A stretch of DNA of 64,000 bases from positions 158,900 to 222,899 of the forward strand of contig VXTM01000004.1 in the NCBI GenBank assembly GCA_009837445.1. Reading direction: 5' to 3'. Under the pieces are notes generated by a model, which had not been told where the DNA came from, searched no databases, and saw only the letters and a program-made list of their open reading frames with translations. The translations under genes were made by a program, and so were the position numbers. Each line of letters starts with the position of its first letter. Position 1 is the stretch's first letter. The stretch comes from Acidimicrobiaceae bacterium. GTDB taxonomy: Bacteria; Actinomycetota; Acidimicrobiia; Acidimicrobiales; Aldehydirespiratoraceae. Shown here in pieces: positions 42,676-55,766 of this stretch.

Positions 42676-44751
42676 CTAGGGCGACGCGCCGAACCAGGCG
42701 TCGTGGAGCCGCTGGTAGATGCCGCTCTCGACGAGGTCGAGCAGGGCTAGATCGATCCTCTCTTGAAGCTCAGGATCGTCCTCGCTGAGCATCAGGCCGT
42801 ATTGGACCCTCTGGAAGTCGGCGCCCACTGTCCCGACCTCGCCGGCCCCCTCCCGGGCGGCGTGGAACTGGAGCACGGGAGCGTCGAACACGACCGCATC
42901 CACCTCACCATCCAGCAGGAGGGGGTAAGCGTCCTCGATGTCGTCCACCAGCACCGGGCCCACCCCGATGGAGGGAAGGTACGCCTCTCCGGCAGAGTGG
43001 GTGGCAGTGGCCACCCGGCGGCCCACCAGATCCGACGGCCCGGAGATCTCCGATCTCAGCTCGTTGACCGCCAGGGACGAGGCGATGGCCGCGGTGAAGC
43101 TGGCGAACACGAGCGTGCCGAGACCGATCCACAGCAGCGCCAGCACGCGGCCCTTCGTTCCCCGAGCGACCTTGTCGCCGTACCCGACGGTGCTCATGGT
43201 CACCACCGACCAGTAGAACGAGTCCCAGATGCCGCGGCGGTAGGGAGTCGCGAAGTCGGGGTTGTTATGGCGCTCCAGCCACCAGATCAAGTGGGCGGCC
43301 ACCAGCACCGCAATCCCGAAGACCACCAGGAGCCAGGGCAGATCCGACGAGGCGATGGCTCTGAAGAACGCGGCGATCCGGTCAACAAGGCCCCGGGACG
43401 ACTGATTGAGGACCAGGATCGTCAGGCCCGAGTCGAGCACAGGCAGCGAGAAGTCGACGACCTCCTCGCGCGACTCGGTGACGGCCACCCCGCCCAGACC
43501 CACCTGGGCCACTCCCCGGCTGATGTCGTCGACCTGCTTGGCCACCGTGTCGACTGCGTAGATCTCGGCCGACATGCCCAGCTTGGCCGCGACCAGCTGC
43601 ACTAGTTCCACCTCGAACCCGCTGTACGTGCGGTTCTCGTAGATCACGAAGGGCGGCAGGGACCGGGCCGCCACCGACAGCGTGCCTCCAGCCTCGGCGG
43701 CGTCGCCCGCAGTGTCGTCCAGCCCGATCGCATCGGGGTCTGCGGCGGTGATCCAACGGTTGACCAGGGCCGCGTTGGCGGCCACCCACTCCTCGGCGTG
43801 GCGCCGGATGTCGGAGGGATCCCCGCCCAGGGTCACCATCCGGACGTTCTGCGCCGATATGTCGGCGAGGGGGATCACCACCTGCTCCAGCAGCGTGCGC
43901 ACCGACGGGTTGGCGTCCAGGAAGTCCGAGTTGGCGACGGCCCGGATGTCGTTGGGGGGCCAGCCGGTCTGGCAGGGATCGTGGGCGCAGCCATCTATCC
44001 CGGCGATGGCCGTCCGGTCCAGTGCCGCCGCCTGATCCGGGGGCAACGACGGGAACGGGGTCTCCAGCCACACGACGTCGGAGCCGGGAACCAGCTCGCC
44101 GACCGTCCAGTTGGGCGTCCATGTGAAGTAGAGGACGGGCTGACCGGACCGGAAACGGTCAATCGTCTCGGTGATGAGGGGTGAGTAGTCGCCCTGCACC
44201 TGCTCCACCGTGCCGGTGAGGCCGTAGGCCTCCAGATGGTGGTCGATGGTGGCCGCGCAGGACCATCCGACATTGCAGCCCACCAGGTCGGCCCGGCCGT
44301 CGCCGTCGTGATCGAAGAGCGCGGCCACCGCGGGGTCGGCAAGGTCTCCCAGGTTGAAGATCCTGTGCGTAGCTGCCGTTGCGGCATCGACGAAGTAGCC
44401 CTGGAGGGCTCCGTCGTCCACCGCGGTGCCGACCCGCGATACGGGGGCCGTGTCGGCGATGAACACCTCGTGTGCGGGGAACCATCCGTTGGCCCACAAG
44501 TCGACCTCGCCCGCCGCAACCGCTTCGTAGAACTGCGCGTTGTCCATTGTCACCGGGCCGTCCACCCGGTAGCCGAGCCGCTCCAGCAGCAGACGGTAGA
44601 CCTCCGCCTGGAACCAGCCGGTATCCCAGGTGGCCCGAGCCAACCGAACCCGGGGGACATCCTCGGACGGGTCCTGCGCGGCCGCTTGGCCTAGGGGCAG
44701 GGCCAGCATGGCGATCATGATCAGCACGACGGCGATTGAGGCTCGTCGCAT
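42676..44751 (-). CDS. Glycine-betaine-binding (OpuAC) domain fused to prokaryotic iGluR-like ligand-gated K+ channel
   Basis: Signal peptide; OpuAC aa ~34-335; SBP_bac_3-like S1 aa ~356-450 (PPFVIYENRTYSGFEVEL); M1 aa ~472-492; P-loop SFYWSVVTMSTVGYGD; M2 LALLWIGLGTLVFASFTAAIASSLAVNEL; S2 aa ~563-689. Confidence 0.9.
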   Translation of the reverse strand: MRRASIAVVLIMIAMLALPLGQAAAQDPSEDVPRVRLARATWDTGWFQAEVYRLLLERLGYRVDGPVTMDNAQFYEAVAAGEVDLWANGWFPAHEVFIADTAPVSRVGTAVDDGALQGYFVDAATAATHRIFNLGDLADPAVAALFDHDGDGRADLVGCNVGWSCAATIDHHLEAYGLTGTVEQVQGDYSPLITETIDRFRSGQPVLYFTWTPNWTVGELVPGSDVVWLETPFPSLPPDQAAALDRTAIAGIDGCAHDPCQTGWPPNDIRAVANSDFLDANPSVRTLLEQVVIPLADISAQNVRMVTLGGDPSDIRRHAEEWVAANAALVNRWITAADPDAIGLDDTAGDAAEAGGTLSVAARSLPPFVIYENRTYSGFEVELVQLVAAKLGMSAEIYAVDTVAKQVDDISRGVAQVGLGGVAVTESREEVVDFSLPVLDSGLTILVLNQSSRGLVDRIAAFFRAIASSDLPWLLVVFGIAVLVAAHLIWWLERHNNPDFATPYRRGIWDSFYWSVVTMSTVGYGDKVARGTKGRVLALLWIGLGTLVFASFTAAIASSLAVNELRSEISGPSDLVGRRVATATHSAGEAYLPSIGVGPVLVDDIEDAYPLLLDGEVDAVVFDAPVLQFHAAREGAGEVGTVGADFQRVQYGLMLSEDDPELQERIDLALLDLVESGIYQRLHDAWFGASP

Positions 44752-44817
44752 GAGCGGCCCCCGGATCGACTCGATGGGAGGCTAGCCCATCCCGGGCTGC
44801 GCTATGGCCGGCGGGAA

Positions 44818-44845
44818 ATAGTAATAAATACTATCTTCTACTATC
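44818..44845. promoter_or_regulatory. AT-rich inverted repeat in divergent channel/BCCT intergenic region
   Basis: ATAGTA-ATAAA-TACTAT (44818-44834) followed by extra CTACTATC half-site. Confidence 0.4.
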
Positions 44846-44966
44846 TCGGTACATCTGCGCGACCTCAGTTTCCGTGTTACGGTCGCGGTGAGTCTGGACA
44901 CCGGGAGGCCCGGTGCACACGCGCCGAGCCCGTCCAGGCCAAGGGGAGACAACCCGGAGGACCGTC

Positions 44967-46790
44967 ATGGACGACGCAGGCAACCCGGCCTCGGAGGATC
45001 CGCGCATCCACCGATCGCCGGACGACACCGACATCAATCTGACCGAGGCGACCCTCGCCTTGCATGATTGGGAGGAGGAGGAGGAGCGCCGCCGCGAGGA
45101 GGCGATCAGCAACCGCAAGTCATTCGAGGGTCTGCAGATCGATCCCGACATCGACTTCTACCCGGAGGTGTCGGATCGGGAGCCCGGGGACCGTAACATC
45201 GTGCGGGCCGGGTTCGACATCCACCCGCAGGTCACGTTCTGGGCGTCGGGGTTCCTGGTGGTGTTCATCTGCCTGTCGATCTTCGTCGAGGCCACGCAGG
45301 ACGTGTTCAGCGAGATCCTCGACTTCATCAACGGGTCGCTCGGCTGGTTCTACATCCTCGACTTCAACATCTTCCTGCTGGTGGCGATGTACTTCGCGTT
45401 CAGCCGTTACGGGAAGATCAAGCTGGGCGGTCCCTTCGCCTTACCGGAGTTCTCCACAGTGTCGTGGTACGCGATGCTGCTGTCGGCGGGGCTGGGCATC
45501 GGGCTGATGTTCTGGGGGGTCGCTGAGCCGATCTTCCACTTCACGTCCCCGGCGCCGCTGTTCGATGTGGAGCCCGGCAGCGTAGAGGCCGGCAAGGCCG
45601 CACTGGCCACCACGTACCTCCATTGGGGCGTTCACGGTTGGGCCCTCTACGGGCTGACGGCGCTGGCTCTGGGCTTCTTCGCCTACAACCGGGGACTGCC
45701 GCTGACGTTCCGGTCGATCTTCTACCCGATCCTCGGGCCGCGCATCTACGGCACCTGGGGCCATGTCATCGACATCCTGACCGTCATCGCCACCCTGTTC
45801 GGGCTGGCCACCTCGCTGGGTTTCGGTGCGCAGCAAGGGGCTGCCGGCCTCAACAAGCTCTTCGGGCTGCCCAACGAGACGTGGTTCCAGATCGTCCTGA
45901 TCCTCGCCATCACCGGGTTGGCCACCATCTCGGTGGTGGCCGGTCTCGATGCGGGGGTCAAGCGGCTCAGCGAGCTGAACATCTGGCTGGCGGGAGCCTT
46001 CCTGGTGTTCATGCTGCTGGTTGGCCCGACGCTGTTCATCCTGTCGCTATACACCCAGAGCCTCGGCTACTACGTGCAGGTCCTGCCGGAGTTCGCGTTC
46101 TGGAACGCAGCCTTCGAGGAGACCCAGTGGCAGGCATGGTGGACGATCTTCTACTGGGGATGGTGGATCTCGTGGTCGCCGTTCGTGGGAATGTTCATCG
46201 CGAGGATCTCCAAGGGCCGCTCGGTGCGCGAGCTGCTCATCGGAGTCATCTTCCTGCCGTCGATCCTGTGCTTCCTGTGGATGTCGGTCTTCGGCGGCTC
46301 GGCCATCAATCTGCAGATGACCGGCGAGCGCGACGTGGCCAGCGCGGTCAACGAGAACGTGGCTACCGCCCTGTTCGACATGTTGGAGGCGTTCCCGCTC
46401 ACCAACATCGTCTCCTTCATAGGAGTGCTGCTGCTGGTGTCGTTCTTCGTGACCTCGTCGGACTCCGGCTCGCTGGTGGTCGACCACCTCACCTCAGGCG
46501 GCAAGCTCGACTCGCCCAAGCCCCAGAGGGTCTTCTGGGCCGTGATGGAGGGTGTGGTGGCCATCGCGCTGCTGATCGGCGGTGGGCTGAGCGCCCTGCA
46601 GACCGCAGCGGTCTCGATCGGGCTGCCGTTCTCGGTGATCCTGTTGATCATGTGCTGGAGCATGAAGAAGGCCTTCACCGAGGAGCTCGACCTGCTCGAG
46701 AGCCACTACGACGAACAGATCTTCCAATCCCAGCACAGCGGCCTGATCGCCCAAGTGAAGGAACGGCTCGCCGAAGGGCCGAAGAAGTGA
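44967..46790 (+). CDS. BCCT family (betaine/carnitine/choline) transporter
   Basis: SAGLGIGLMFWGVAEPIFHF; YWGWWISWSPFVGMFIARISKGRSVRELLIGVIFLPSILCFLWMSVFGG; about 90-aa acidic N-terminal extension. Confidence 0.95.
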   Translation: MDDAGNPASEDPRIHRSPDDTDINLTEATLALHDWEEEEERRREEAISNRKSFEGLQIDPDIDFYPEVSDREPGDRNIVRAGFDIHPQVTFWASGFLVVFICLSIFVEATQDVFSEILDFINGSLGWFYILDFNIFLLVAMYFAFSRYGKIKLGGPFALPEFSTVSWYAMLLSAGLGIGLMFWGVAEPIFHFTSPAPLFDVEPGSVEAGKAALATTYLHWGVHGWALYGLTALALGFFAYNRGLPLTFRSIFYPILGPRIYGTWGHVIDILTVIATLFGLATSLGFGAQQGAAGLNKLFGLPNETWFQIVLILAITGLATISVVAGLDAGVKRLSELNIWLAGAFLVFMLLVGPTLFILSLYTQSLGYYVQVLPEFAFWNAAFEETQWQAWWTIFYWGWWISWSPFVGMFIARISKGRSVRELLIGVIFLPSILCFLWMSVFGGSAINLQMTGERDVASAVNENVATALFDMLEAFPLTNIVSFIGVLLLVSFFVTSSDSGSLVVDHLTSGGKLDSPKPQRVFWAVMEGVVAIALLIGGGLSALQTAAVSIGLPFSVILLIMCWSMKKAFTEELDLLESHYDEQIFQSQHSGLIAQVKERLAEGPKK

Positions 46791-46821
46791 CGGGCCGGCT
46801 TGAGAAGGGAGGAGGCTCGAA

Positions 46822-47838
46822 ATGAAGAAACAACAGCGCAACACCCTGGTCCTGGTCGGAGCGTTGGTCGCTCTGGTCGTCGTGGCCCTCGTCGTGATCT
46901 TCAGCGGCGAGGAGGAGGACGAGACGGTGACCATGGCCCGGGCCAACTGGTCCAGCGGCTACATGCAGGCCGAGATCTACGCCCAGCTCATCGGTGAACT
47001 GGGGTACACGGTCACGGACCCGTCCGCCCACACCCTCAACCCGTACTCCTTCTATCCGGCACTGGACAGCGGGCAGTACGACCTGTGGGCCAACGGCTGG
47101 TTCCCCACCCACGACATCTACCTCACGTCCGAGACAGCCGCCGGGCTGGAGTACGACCGCAGCATCGAGGCGGTCGGCCAGCAGGTCCAATCGGGTGCCC
47201 TCCAGGGGTACATGATCGACAAGGCCACCGCGGATGCCATGGGCATCACCTCGATGAGCCAGCTTGAGAACCCGTCGGTCGCCGCCGTGTTCGACCAGGA
47301 CAACGACGGCCTCGCCGACCTGATCGGCTGCAACGTGGGCTGGGGCTGCGAGACCATCATCAACAACCACATCGCTGAACTCGGCTGGGGCGACAATGTC
47401 GAGCAGGTGTCAGGCACCTACGGCGAGTTGATGCAAAGAGTCCAGGCCAGGGTGGCGGCCGGTGAGCCAGCGCTGTTCTACGCCTGGACGCCCAACTGGA
47501 CCTACGAGGCGCTCCCGCCGGGGGTGGACGCGGTCTGGCTGGAGTCGCCCGCGCTGGAGGACGACGAGGGCACCACCGAGGTCCGGGGCCTCGCCGGCTG
47601 CGCCGGCAACCCGTGCAACCTGGGATGGCCGGTCAACAGCATCCAGGCGGTGGCCAACAGCGAGTTCCTCGACGACAACCCCGACATCCGGCGCCTGCTC
47701 GAGCAGGTTGAGATCCCGCTGGCCGACATCGCCGCCCAGAACGCCGGGGCCAACCCCGACGCCAAGGCCGACGCGGCCGCCTGGATCGCCGACAACCGGG
47801 CCCTGGTCGACATCTGGCTGGCGAACGCTCGAGGCTGA
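46822..47838 (+). CDS. Membrane-anchored glycine-betaine-type (OpuAC) substrate-binding protein
   Basis: N-terminal TM anchor; MARANWSSGYMQAEIYAQLIGELGYTV; DLWANGWFPTHDIY; CNVGWGC; FYAWTPNWT. Confidence 0.92.
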   Translation: MKKQQRNTLVLVGALVALVVVALVVIFSGEEEDETVTMARANWSSGYMQAEIYAQLIGELGYTVTDPSAHTLNPYSFYPALDSGQYDLWANGWFPTHDIYLTSETAAGLEYDRSIEAVGQQVQSGALQGYMIDKATADAMGITSMSQLENPSVAAVFDQDNDGLADLIGCNVGWGCETIINNHIAELGWGDNVEQVSGTYGELMQRVQARVAAGEPALFYAWTPNWTYEALPPGVDAVWLESPALEDDEGTTEVRGLAGCAGNPCNLGWPVNSIQAVANSEFLDDNPDIRRLLEQVEIPLADIAAQNAGANPDAKADAAAWIADNRALVDIWLANARG

Positions 47839-50977: not shown

Positions 50978-52861
50978 ATGAAGTTCTGGCGCGTAATCGC
51001 GGCCCTAGCAGTCGTCACGCTTGTGGCATCCGCATGCGGAGACGACGAAGAAGCCGCTCCGGACACCAGCGCGGCCGACGCCGCGCTCGCGCAGGCTCAG
51101 GCCGACGCCACCGCTGCCCAGGCGGAGGCCGATGCGGCCGCCGCTGAGGCTGACGCGGCTGCTGCCGCAGCAGCCGAGGCCCAGGCAGCCCTCGAGGCTG
51201 CCATGGCCGAAGCCGAGGGCGCGGTGGACCCAGAGGTGGTGGCCGAGCTCGAGGCGGCACTTGAAGCAGCCCAGGCCGATGCAGACGCAGCCAGGGCAGA
51301 GGCCGAAGCGGCTGCCGCTGCGGCTGAGGAGGCTGCCGCCGCGGCCGAGGCTCCAGAAGAGGAGCCTGCCGCGCCAGTCGAAGAGGGGCCATCAGGAACA
51401 CTCCGTGTCGCGGTCGACCGGGACGTGGAGAACCTCGACCCCAACTTCGCCAAGCAGATCATCGCCGAGACCTTCTCGCAGGCCGTCTTCGACAGCCTGA
51501 TCACGTTCAGCTACGAAGGCGACTTCATTCCCCTGCTGGCTTCCGAGTTCGCGTTCACATCCGACACCACCCTCGAGTTCTGGCTACGGGAGGGCATCAC
51601 CTTCCACAACGGCGAGACATTCGACGCCAGGTCGGTAACCACCTCGGTGGCCAGGATGCAGGACGAGGACGAGGGATCCCACCTCATCCGGAACTTCGCC
51701 AGCATCGTCGAGGTCGAGGTGGTCAACGACTACCACGTGATCATGCACCTGTCGGGTCCGGACGCGCAGCTGCTGCACGCGCTGACGAGACTGCCGATGG
51801 TCCCGCCCGACCACTACGCGGCAGTCGGTCAGGCCGAGTTCGCGCAGAACCCGATCGGCAGCGGGCCGTTCAAGTTCGTCGAGTACGTGATCGACAGCCA
51901 CACCATCTTCGAGGCCAACCCCGACTACTGGGACGGCAGCCCCAAGGGCAAGCCCCTGGTCGCCGAGGTCGTCATGCGGGTGATCCCCGAGCCCACCACC
52001 CGGGTGTCTGAGCTGGTGACCGGCGGCGTGGACCTGATCGCCGCGGTTCCGCTCGACCAGCGCTCAGTGGTCACCGACGCCGGCATGACCAACATCAGCT
52101 ACGCCGACGGGCGGGTAGCCGTGGCCCGCATCAACTCGTCGAACATCGGCGTGTCAGCGGAGGCCGCCGAGGGTGAGGCCGCCAGGGGCTTCGAGGCGCT
52201 CACCGACGTCAGGGTCAGGCAGGCTCTGAATTACGCGGTCGACCGCCAGACCATCATCGATGCCCTGCTAGGCGGGACCGCCACGCCGCTGGGTCAGCCG
52301 TTCGTACCCGGCGGCTTCGGCTACAACCCCGACAACGAGGCTTACCCCTACGATCCGGACAGGGCCCGGGAGCTGCTGGCTGAGGCCGGCTACGGCGATG
52401 GGCTCAACATCAAGCTCACCGCCCAGAACACGATCCTCTCCGACGTGCTGACTGCGCTGGTGGACTACTTCGCCGACGTGGGTGTCACGGCCGAACTAGA
52501 GGTGATCGAGCCCGGACTCGGCAATCAGAGGCTGCTGGCCGGCGACTACGACCCGCTGTTCATGAGCACCTGGTATCCGGCTGAGACGTTCTTCCACTTC
52601 CTGATCCGCTGCGAGGGGCTCATCAGCACCTACTGCAACCCGGATCTGGAGCCTCTGCTTCTGGAGGAGAAGCAGACCCTGGACATCGGCGAGCGGAACC
52701 AGATCATTTGGCAGATCACCGACGTCCTCAGGGAGGAGGCACCGGCGCTGTGGCTGTGGAACTCCGAGAGCACCGCCGGTGTGAACACGAACAAGGTCTC
52801 GGGCTGGAAGAGCCACGCCCGCGGCTGGATCATGTTCACCGACGTCTCCGTGAGCGAGTAG
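50978..52861 (+). CDS. Peptide/nickel-type ABC substrate-binding lipoprotein (SBP_bac_5) with N-terminal Ala/Glu coiled-coil stalk
   Basis: Lipobox [17 protein letters not shown]; coiled-coil AEADAAAAEADAAAAAAAEAQAALEAAMAEAEGAVDPEVVAELEA; SBP_5 LRVAVDRDVENLDPNFA. Confidence 0.92.
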   Translation: MKFWRVIAALAVVTLVASACGDDEEAAPDTSAADAALAQAQADATAAQAEADAAAAEADAAAAAAAEAQAALEAAMAEAEGAVDPEVVAELEAALEAAQADADAARAEAEAAAAAAEEAAAAAEAPEEEPAAPVEEGPSGTLRVAVDRDVENLDPNFAKQIIAETFSQAVFDSLITFSYEGDFIPLLASEFAFTSDTTLEFWLREGITFHNGETFDARSVTTSVARMQDEDEGSHLIRNFASIVEVEVVNDYHVIMHLSGPDAQLLHALTRLPMVPPDHYAAVGQAEFAQNPIGSGPFKFVEYVIDSHTIFEANPDYWDGSPKGKPLVAEVVMRVIPEPTTRVSELVTGGVDLIAAVPLDQRSVVTDAGMTNISYADGRVAVARINSSNIGVSAEAAEGEAARGFEALTDVRVRQALNYAVDRQTIIDALLGGTATPLGQPFVPGGFGYNPDNEAYPYDPDRARELLAEAGYGDGLNIKLTAQNTILSDVLTALVDYFADVGVTAELEVIEPGLGNQRLLAGDYDPLFMSTWYPAETFFHFLIRCEGLISTYCNPDLEPLLLEEKQTLDIGERNQIIWQITDVLREEAPALWLWNSESTAGVNTNKVSGWKSHARGWIMFTDVSVSE

Positions 52862-52920
52862 ACGCTGCTAGCCGGTAGCCGTTAGGAAAAGGCGGTGGGC
52901 GCCCTAGACGTCACGCCCCA

Positions 52921-53838
52921 ATGCTGAGATTCCTGGTCCGCCGGATGCTGCACAGCATCCTGGTGCTGCTCGGCGTGCTGTTCGTGGTGCACGGGCTGCT
53001 GCTGCTCACCGGCGACCCGACCGCGGCCCTGCTGCCCCCCGACGCCGACGAGGAGGTACGCGAGAACCTCCGCCAGAAGCACGGGCTCGACGACCCCTTC
53101 CCGGTCCAGTACGTCAAGTTCGTGGGGCGGGCGGTGCGGGGCGACTTCGGCGACTCGTTCCGCCAGGCCCGCCCCGCGTTCGAGTTCGTGTCCGAGAAGG
53201 CCGGCGAGACGATCAAGCTGGGCGCCGTCGGGCTGGCGATCTCGTTGGCGGTAGGGGGTCCGCTCGGTGCTCTCTCGGCTCTGCGGAAGGGCACCTGGAT
53301 CGACCGTACAGCCCGGATGGTGGCCGCCATGGGCCAGGCCATCCCCGACTTCTGGCTGGGCATCATGCTGATCCTCATCCTGGGGGTGAATCTCAACTGG
53401 CTGCCCATCTCGGGCACCGGTGACTGGAGGCACCTGGTGATGCCGGGACTCGTGGTGGCCCTGCCCACACTGCCGGCCGTGGTGCGCATCTACCGGTCGA
53501 GCCTGATCGGGGTGCTCGACCGGGACTATGTGCGGGCCGCCCGGGCCCGGGGCCTCAGAGGCGCTCAGGTGTTCGGACGCCACGTGGCCCGCAACGCGGC
53601 CATCCCGATCGTGACCGTCCTCGCCTTCGAGGTCGGATCGATCATGTCGGGAGCGCTCATCGCCGAGGTGATCTTCGCCTATCCGGGGATGGGCCGGGTG
53701 GCCTACCAAGCGATCATCAACCGCGACATCGCGGTGGTCCAGGCCTATGTGTTCATGGTCAGCCTGATCGTGGTGACCACCAACATGCTCCTCGACATCG
53801 CCTACTCGATGCTCGACCCCAGGGTACGGGTGAGATGA
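52921..53838 (+). CDS. dppB: Peptide ABC transporter permease, DppB-like
   Basis: LRFLVRRMLHSILVLLGVLFVVHGLLLLTGDP; RAARARGLRGAQVFGRHVARNAAIPIVTVLAFEVGSIMSGALIAEVIFAYPGMG. Confidence 0.92.
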   Translation: MLRFLVRRMLHSILVLLGVLFVVHGLLLLTGDPTAALLPPDADEEVRENLRQKHGLDDPFPVQYVKFVGRAVRGDFGDSFRQARPAFEFVSEKAGETIKLGAVGLAISLAVGGPLGALSALRKGTWIDRTARMVAAMGQAIPDFWLGIMLILILGVNLNWLPISGTGDWRHLVMPGLVVALPTLPAVVRIYRSSLIGVLDRDYVRAARARGLRGAQVFGRHVARNAAIPIVTVLAFEVGSIMSGALIAEVIFAYPGMGRVAYQAIINRDIAVVQAYVFMVSLIVVTTNMLLDIAYSMLDPRVRVR

Positions 53839-54761
53839 AGGTCCGGACCCGCCCCGACAGCGGCACCGCCGAGGCGGCGACGGCCAGCACCAGGCGCCTG
53901 ACACGGGCCGCCGCCGCCGCTCGGAGGCGCACCCGGGCCACGCTGATCCTGTCGGCCGGCTTCCTGGCCGTGATCGTGCTGGTGTCGGTGCTGGCCCCCT
54001 GGATCACCTGGCACGATCCGCTCGACGCCGAACTGGTCAACCGGCTGCAGCCCCCCGGCTGGCTCGACGGGGGCTCGTGGAGCCACCCGTTGGGAACCGA
54101 CTCCACCGGCCGGGACCTGTTCACCCGGATGCTGTTCGGGGTGAGGCTGTCACTGCTCATCGGGCTGGCCGCGGTGGCCTGCGGAGGCATCATTGGAGTG
54201 ACCGCGGGGATCCTGGCCGGCTACTACGACGAGAAGATCGCGGCGGTCGGCTTCGGCCGGGTCGCCGACATCCAGCAGGCCATCCCGTTCGTGGTGCTGG
54301 CGCTGGCCGTGGTGGCCTCGATCGGCCCCTCGTTCCGGAACCTGATCCTGATCCTGGGCGTGGGCTCCTGGCTCTTCTACTACCGCATCGTCCGGGGCGA
54401 GGTGCTCAAGATCCGGGAGGAGTCCTACATCGACGCGGCCAAGGCCATGGGGAAGTCCGACGCCGGCATCCTCATCTCCCACGTGCTGCCCAACAGCTTC
54501 GCGCCGGTCATTGTGATCGTCACGCTCTTCGTGCCCCGTCTGATCATGTTCGCGGCGGCCCTCAGCTTCCTCGGTCTCGGCGTCCAGCCGCCGCGGGCGG
54601 AGCTGGGCCTGATGATCTCCGAGGGACGCGGGCTGATCCAGCAGGCCTGGTGGCTCACTGTGTTCCCGGGCGCGCTGCTGGCCGGGATCGTCCTGGCCAT
54701 GAACACCTTGGGCGACTGGCTGCGTGAGCGGCTGGACCCGACCCTGAGGGTCAGGCAGTAG
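53835..54761 (+). CDS. dppC: Peptide ABC transporter permease, DppC-like
   Basis: HPLGTDSTGRDLFTRMLFGVRLSLLIGL; DAAKAMGKSDAGILISHVLPNSFAPVIV. Confidence 0.92.
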   Translation: MKVRTRPDSGTAEAATASTRRLTRAAAAARRRTRATLILSAGFLAVIVLVSVLAPWITWHDPLDAELVNRLQPPGWLDGGSWSHPLGTDSTGRDLFTRMLFGVRLSLLIGLAAVACGGIIGVTAGILAGYYDEKIAAVGFGRVADIQQAIPFVVLALAVVASIGPSFRNLILILGVGSWLFYYRIVRGEVLKIREESYIDAAKAMGKSDAGILISHVLPNSFAPVIVIVTLFVPRLIMFAAALSFLGLGVQPPRAELGLMISEGRGLIQQAWWLTVFPGALLAGIVLAMNTLGDWLRERLDPTLRVRQ

Positions 54762-54764
54762 GCC

Positions 54765-55766
54765 ATGGCGCCGGACACCGGCACCGTGAGCTCCCAGGTG
54801 CTCGCCGTCGAGGGCCTGACCGTCTCGTTCCGGGCCGTGGCCGGAGTGGTCCCCGCGGTCCGGGGCGTCGACGTGACCGTGGGCGCGGGCGAGACCGTGG
54901 CTCTGGTCGGCGAGTCGGGATCGGGTAAGAGCGCCTCGGTGCTCGGCATGCTGGGCCTGTTCCACCCCGACAGCGCCGCGGTCGAGGCCGAGCGCTTCGA
55001 GTTCGAGGACATGGAGCTGTCGGCCGGCCGCCGCGAGGACCTTCAGGACCTTCTGGGCACCCGCATCGGGATCATCTTCCAGGACCCCCAGAGCAGCCTC
55101 GACCCGACCATGAAGGTGGGCAGGCAGATCGCCGAGGTGCCCCGCCTGCGCCTGGGCCTCGACCGGAACACCGTGCGCCGTAAGGTGCTCGACAGCCTGG
55201 CCGAGGTCGGCATCCGCGACCCCGAGTGGTGCGCGTCGGCCTATCCCCACGAGCTGAGCGGCGGGATGCGCCAGCGAGCCATGATCGCCACCGTCATGAT
55301 CGCCGGACCGTCGCTGCTGATCGCCGACGAGCCCACCACCGCGCTGGACGTGACCCTTCAGGCCCAGGTAATCGACCTGCTGGCCACGCTCCAGGAGGAG
55401 CGGGGCACGGGAATCCTGTTCATCACCCACGACCTGTCGCTGGTGTCGGAGTTCGCCGACCGGGTGATGGTGATGTACGCCGGCACGGTGGTCGAGTCGG
55501 GGGACACCGAAGCCGTCGTGAACCACCCTTCGCATCCCTACACCAGGGCCCTGCTGGAGTCGGTCCCCCGCCTCGACGGAGGCCGGGTGAGACCGATACA
55601 GGGACGCCCGCCCGATCCGCGGGACCTGCCCAGCGGCTGCCCGTTCCGCACCCGGTGCGACCACGCCCACGATCGTTGCGAGCAGGTCGAGCCGCCCACC
55701 TTCAGACTCCCCAGCGGTCAGACGATCCGCTGCTGGCTCGGCGAGCAGGACGGCGAGCCGTGCTGA
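54765..55766 (+). CDS. dppD: Peptide ABC transporter ATPase, DppD-like
   Basis: VGESGSGKSASVLGMLGLF; LSGGMRQRAMIATVMIAGPSLLIADEPTTALDVTLQAQVI. Confidence 0.93.
   Translation: MAPDTGTVSSQVLAVEGLTVSFRAVAGVVPAVRGVDVTVGAGETVALVGESGSGKSASVLGMLGLFHPDSAAVEAERFEFEDMELSAGRREDLQDLLGTRIGIIFQDPQSSLDPTMKVGRQIAEVPRLRLGLDRNTVRRKVLDSLAEVGIRDPEWCASAYPHELSGGMRQRAMIATVMIAGPSLLIADEPTTALDVTLQAQVIDLLATLQEERGTGILFITHDLSLVSEFADRVMVMYAGTVVESGDTEAVVNHPSHPYTRALLESVPRLDGGRVRPIQGRPPDPRDLPSGCPFRTRCDHAHDRCEQVEPPTFRLPSGQTIRCWLGEQDGEPC

Follow-up and report, generated by a model that had tools for sequence, protein, structure and literature searches.

A single open reading frame in the window (the whole 64,000-nucleotide stretch of DNA that was analysed) encodes a predicted channel of the GluR0 type whose outer domain is of the ProX type, and by its sequence it is not an iGluR of the eukaryotic type. 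The gene lies beside genes for a BCCT carrier and a separate OpuAC-type binding protein, and the analysis suggests that potassium flow is tied to betaine supply via one channel. The preferred reading, to which slightly better than an even chance is given, is that of a K+-selective channel under the joint control of a betaine-type osmolyte and an amino acid, within an osmolyte-uptake module where it would couple K+ release to import. The features of the locus are as follows.

42676..44751, reverse strand: OpuAC-GluR0 fusion channel, 691 aa, an intact open frame
44674..44751, reverse strand: signal peptide, residues 1-26, assigned by eye (hydrophobic run, then an AQAAAQ-like end)
43741..44652, reverse strand: outer (amino-terminal) ProX/OpuAC domain (ATD), residues 34-337, from Pfam, PDB sequence match and Foldseek
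within 43741..44652, reverse strand: ATD cage residues W90, H94, W163, C165 and W211, from alignment to ProX
43681..43740, reverse strand: variable linker, residues 338-357, from alignment and raised dN/dS
43387..43680, reverse strand: S1 half of the inner ligand-binding domain, residues 358-455, including R428, from Pfam, PDB match and alignment
43264..43341, reverse strand: M1 helix, about residues 471-496, from model secondary structure and Pfam
43174..43191, reverse strand: K+ selectivity filter TVGYGD, residues 521-526, from translation and alignment
43057..43158, reverse strand: M2 helix, about residues 532-565, from Pfam and model secondary structure
42688..43050, reverse strand: S2 half of the inner ligand-binding domain, residues 568-688, including D623, from Pfam, PDB match and alignment
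44752..44966, no strand: intergenic DNA separating the channel gene from the divergently oriented BCCT gene, ending before the probable BCCT start
44913..46790, forward strand: BCCT carrier, open frame with GTG at 44913 (ATG at 44967 is the likelier start)
46822..47838, forward strand: separate OpuAC/ProX-type binding protein, from Pfam and NCBIfam, with an N-terminal membrane anchor seen by eye

Pfam assigned OpuAC to residues 34-324 of the channel protein (1.6e-44), SBP_bac_3 to residues 363-688 with an interruption by the pore (9.8e-24), Ion_trans_2 to residues 481-560 (3.6e-14) and Lig_chan to residues 473-578 (2.6e-12). In a sequence search of the PDB, residues 43-337 matched E. coli ProX (1r9l, 4e-62), and S1 and S2 together matched the ligand core of Nostoc punctiforme GluR0 (2pyy, 1e-35). 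The original prediction of a 691-aa frame combining OpuAC, SBP_bac_3 and a pore was borne out by these matches, all three of the corresponding profiles (OpuAC, SBP_bac_3 and Ion_trans_2) being significant in the frame; its position for the filter TVGYGD, 43174-43191, was exact, and the motifs it quoted were present in the translation. Pfam, the PDB match and the structure model place the S1 and S2 halves of the SBP_bac_3-type domain on either side of two membrane helices and a pore loop. S2 extends to the C-terminus, with no M4 or third membrane helix in Pfam or in the secondary structure of the model, and the outer domain is OpuAC by Pfam, a LIVBP-type outer domain not being present. The full-length protein, modelled as a single chain (mean pLDDT 65.8, pTM 0.48), was well predicted in the ATD and poorly predicted in the pore region and parts of S1-S2, and the channel half modelled alone was of low confidence (61.2) and was set aside. 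Foldseek with the full-protein model returned ProX as the top match (5e-28) and listed iGluR LBD-TMD structures as well. The whole channel protein passes the cutoff of the NCBIfam ProX model (340 vs 215 bits), which may explain why it went unnoticed; automatic annotation may label such a channel as a plain ABC binding protein.

The predicted channel shares with GluR0 of Synechocystis and the Group 1 channels (PMC2950845, PMC13099474) a signal peptide, the order S1-M1-P-M2-S2, a K+ filter, an Arg in S1 and an Asp in S2. GluR0 is without an outer domain (PMC6385376), whereas the fused channel adds OpuAC ahead of S1, has Ala at two pocket positions and is linked to BCCT and OpuAC genes. The ATD has the fold, the length and all five mapped cage residues of the ProX/OpuAC betaine-binding proteins (1r9l) and lies in a protein scoring above the ProX cutoff, but it is fused to a channel, and its neighbour is a BCCT carrier, with no ABC transporter genes adjoining. 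OpuA-type ABC importers likewise have OpuAC fused to a membrane protein, but there the partner is an ABC permease (PMC6207618) and not a ligand-gated channel. The layering of the eukaryotic iGluRs (AMPA, NMDA and delta) is the same, with an outer binding domain, an inner S1-S2 domain and a pore loop entering from the inside; theirs is a LIVBP outer domain with an M4 helix, whereas the fused channel has OpuAC, no M4 and a K+-selective filter.

Genome contigs were scanned for close relatives, which yielded 17 loci in Acidimicrobiia, one Nitriliruptorales and further bacterial records; several of these records are the same contigs as genomes within the window's class. The fused gene was present in 15 of the 17, L016 being a broken or partial copy and L017 having been picked up via its neighbouring binding protein, and 14 fused copies aligned over their full length to the window protein at 55-96% identity. 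Among 396 genomes of the class, 28 fused-type channels were found (channel half at 64-100% identity), 27 of them with reading frames no shorter than 692 aa and one cut at a contig end, while 11 genomes held unfused GluR0-like channels that stood clearly apart, at 29-40% identity and in frames of up to 488 aa. A search of the phylum gave further fused copies at 53-57% identity and one broken copy. Acidimicrobiia and other Actinomycetota contribute 39 distinct fused sequences, most of them from metagenome-assembled genomes. Plasmid records contained only unfused GluR0-like matches, each starting at S1, and viral contigs one weak OpuAC-only locus, with no fused copy in either; outside Actinomycetota, the close-relative contig scan and the plasmid and viral searches identified none.

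Comparison of the window's gene with six orthologues gave dN/dS of about 0.07-0.20 in the ATD, S1, pore and S2, higher values being confined to the 20-residue linker. In the channel-half tree a branch with SH-aLRT 99 separates the 39 fused sequences, two of them contig-truncated copies, from the rest, and in the ATD tree the ATDs cluster together (SH-aLRT 94). A single origin of the fusion, retained since, would be the simplest reading. The predominance of metagenome-assembled sequences and the broken distant copy G686 could be taken to mean that the channel frame is an assembly join, a frameshift or a pseudogene, but this is refuted by full-length copies conserved across families and orders and opposed by the 39 distinct sequences in one clade, the purifying selection and the invariant functional residues, so that its probability is practically nil. 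The frameshift or assembly join between domains against which the original prediction had guarded is ruled out by the low dN/dS and by an architecture common to separately assembled genomes at 53-97% identity.

The betaine contacts of ProX (W65, H69, W140, C142 and W188) align to W90, H94, W163, C165 and W211 of the channel. Across the 39 ATDs, position 90 is Trp in 38 (one is truncated), position 94 is His in 34 and Gln in 4, positions 163 and 165 are Trp and Cys throughout, and position 211 is Trp in 34 and Phe in 5. Phe at position 211 is common to the five complete ATDs of loci with convergent gene order. The same cage set occurs in 41 BCCT-linked binding proteins, five of which have Tyr for Trp at the last position. 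The conserved cage upholds the betaine-binding competence predicted for what had been described as a complete glycine-betaine-type domain. The natural expectation for the ATD ligand would be a carboxylate-bearing quaternary ammonium compound, e.g. glycine betaine, with proline betaine or DMSP as possible alternatives.

Outer domains of eukaryotic receptors also serve assembly. The ATD could accordingly be an assembly or stability module only, its betaine cage kept by descent and without a part in signalling; gating remained intact in GluA1-based chimeras after removal of the outer domain (PMC6385376), meaning that gating can do without such domains. The cage of the fused channels, however, is invariant or exchanged aromatic for aromatic down to about 60% identity while the linker drifts, and a purely structural role is considered very unlikely. 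ATDs and neighbouring binding proteins form separate clades, and the order in which these branch depends on a long-branched outgroup; derivation of the ATD by copying of the neighbouring binding protein was for these reasons not adopted.

In the pore, VGYGD is invariant in 37 of 37 fused sequences. R428 in S1 and D623 in S2 do not vary among the fused and unfused sequences compared; an Arg in S1 and an Asp in S2 are fully conserved in prokaryotic glutamate receptor channels, and by the criterion of that study (PMC2950845) they correspond to the Arg for the alpha-carboxylate and the Asp for the alpha-amino group. S70 and T122 of NpGluR0 align to A423 and A587 of the channel, positions that are Ala in 31 and 33, respectively, of the 37 fused sequences and mostly Ser/Thr in unfused relatives. 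The equivalents of these two pocket positions in GluA2, T480 and T655, contact the agonist. With Ala at both positions the inner ligand may not be glutamate; the S1-S2 domain probably still binds an alpha-amino acid, perhaps one other than glutamate.

BCCT and OpuAC genes adjoin the channel gene in all 31 fused genomes fetched with flanks (in the 31st the locus is split between contigs), and additional contig-scan loci are consistent with this linkage. The channel is divergent from the pair in 23 genomes, follows it on one strand as BCCT-OpuAC-channel in 2 and is convergent in 6; where all three genes share a strand, the probable start codon of the channel follows the OpuAC stop by 13-14 nt in two loci. 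Convergent loci (L083, L084, L087-L090, L011 and L014) represent more divergent fused lineages. Neither a BCCT nor an OpuAC gene was present in the fetched flanks of unfused GluR0-like channels (0 of 9). Outer neighbours vary, with acyl-CoA-type genes in the window and uvrC/rapZ/pgk-like surroundings (named by eye) at 12 loci that form one group, and no fourth constant gene was found at fused loci. Three genomes have the BCCT-OpuAC pair with no channel nearby (their assemblies are 81-86% complete, and a channel elsewhere is possible), so the pair is not tied to the channel. The link to compatible-solute uptake that had been proposed from the channel gene is strengthened by BCCT and OpuAC genes beside every fused gene checked; neither these partners nor the two altered pocket positions had been part of the original prediction.

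The BCCT and OpuAC genes overlap by 4 nt in most loci checked, and the OpuAC protein begins with a lipobox-like sequence in most loci checked and with an N-terminal hydrophobic anchor (by eye) in the window's genus. Constant pairing of the two genes is seen at 44913-47838 of the window and at loci L060-L090 and L100-L102. Aligned to BetP, the carrier retains the Trp residues of BetP and a GxGxG motif (as GLGIG), and its NCBIfam score of 546 bits lies below the betaine_BCCT cutoff of 650 but exceeds that of the general BCCT model. Among solved BCCT carriers the Na+-dependent, TMA-specific TmaT is the closest; it does not bind betaine, which weakens a betaine-import model for the carrier. Transport of TMA, as this match would suggest, was not adopted because the ATD and the binding protein keep betaine carboxylate-side residues, and the carrier is read as betaine-like and putatively Na+-coupled. 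The immediate neighbours, acyl-CoA-type genes besides the BCCT and OpuAC genes, include no ABC permease or ATPase gene; a set of ABC genes at 50978-55766 belongs to a different family, the SBP_bac_5 type. BCCT carriers are normally self-sufficient. The carrier and binding protein may together perform binding-protein-assisted secondary transport, and their constant pairing would possibly be a new kind of it.

In the proposed mechanism a betaine-type osmolyte would bind the outer ProX-like domain, an alpha-amino acid would bind the S1-S2 clamshell, and both ligands would jointly set the opening of the two-helix K+ pore, presumably in a tetramer acting together with the neighbouring carrier and OpuAC binding protein. 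With osmolyte present and entering together with Na+, the channel would open and K+ would exit, offsetting the incoming charge while betaine takes over from K+ as the cell osmolyte. The ATD, on the other hand, might not regulate the pore but be a tethered binding protein that traps osmolyte at the membrane and passes it on to the BCCT carrier, or that links the channel to this carrier, the S1-S2 ligand alone gating and the pore serving counter-ion flow. What makes this plausible is the likeness of the ATD to the OpuAC protein next door (46-52% identity, cage kept in both) and the variability of the linker that joins ATD and S1, which speaks against tight coupling of ATD and pore; the channel gene, moreover, always adjoins a carrier gene. 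Against it, a free or lipid-anchored binding protein stands beside the carrier in every locus and would make a second delivery domain redundant, and the ATD clade is distinct from that of the binding proteins; a tethered role is judged unlikely but worth keeping in view.

Replacement of potassium glutamate by neutral solutes is general bacterial physiology (PMC13099474, discussion), and the same paper shows that K+ passes through GluR0 of Synechocystis, with an effect on cell volume under KCl stress (PMC13099474). The authors of that study interpret GluR0 as passive K+ influx under high KCl and not efflux, which weakens the efflux model proposed here. The fused channel could on that precedent be a K+ entry route, opened by osmolyte or amino acid in the medium; the inferred passive influx is the main support for this, together with the rescue of an E. 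coli K+-uptake mutant by GluR0 (PMC13099474). Efflux nevertheless accords better with the linkage to import of osmolytes, which generally take the place of K+, and the direction of flow is set by the membrane potential. Entry as the function of the channel is regarded as decidedly unlikely.

Within the open-access literature (subscription papers and preprints being mostly outside the search) no description of an OpuAC-channel fusion was found, nor in the open-access literature one of a BCCT carrier constantly paired with a binding protein. A bacterial lineage appears to have gained an outer domain from a binding-protein family other than that of the eukaryotic iGluRs and to have kept it linked to osmolyte-import genes. 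Should the outer domain prove to regulate the pore, the fusion would be a natural second case of how such domain layering arises, and one protein would link K+ and betaine, two currencies of bacterial osmoadaptation. Tentatively, and with somewhat less than an even chance, these proteins may form a class of osmolyte-gated K+ channels, iGluR-like with an independently evolved outer-domain layer, that sense a betaine-type osmolyte and an amino acid and exchange K+ for betaine with a binding-protein-assisted BCCT. Several genomes of the class also carry single open frames (about 716-830 aa) in which OpuAC domains stand in tandem, examples being L105 (G323:C1:3340774-3342678) and G272:C1:2016119-2018107.
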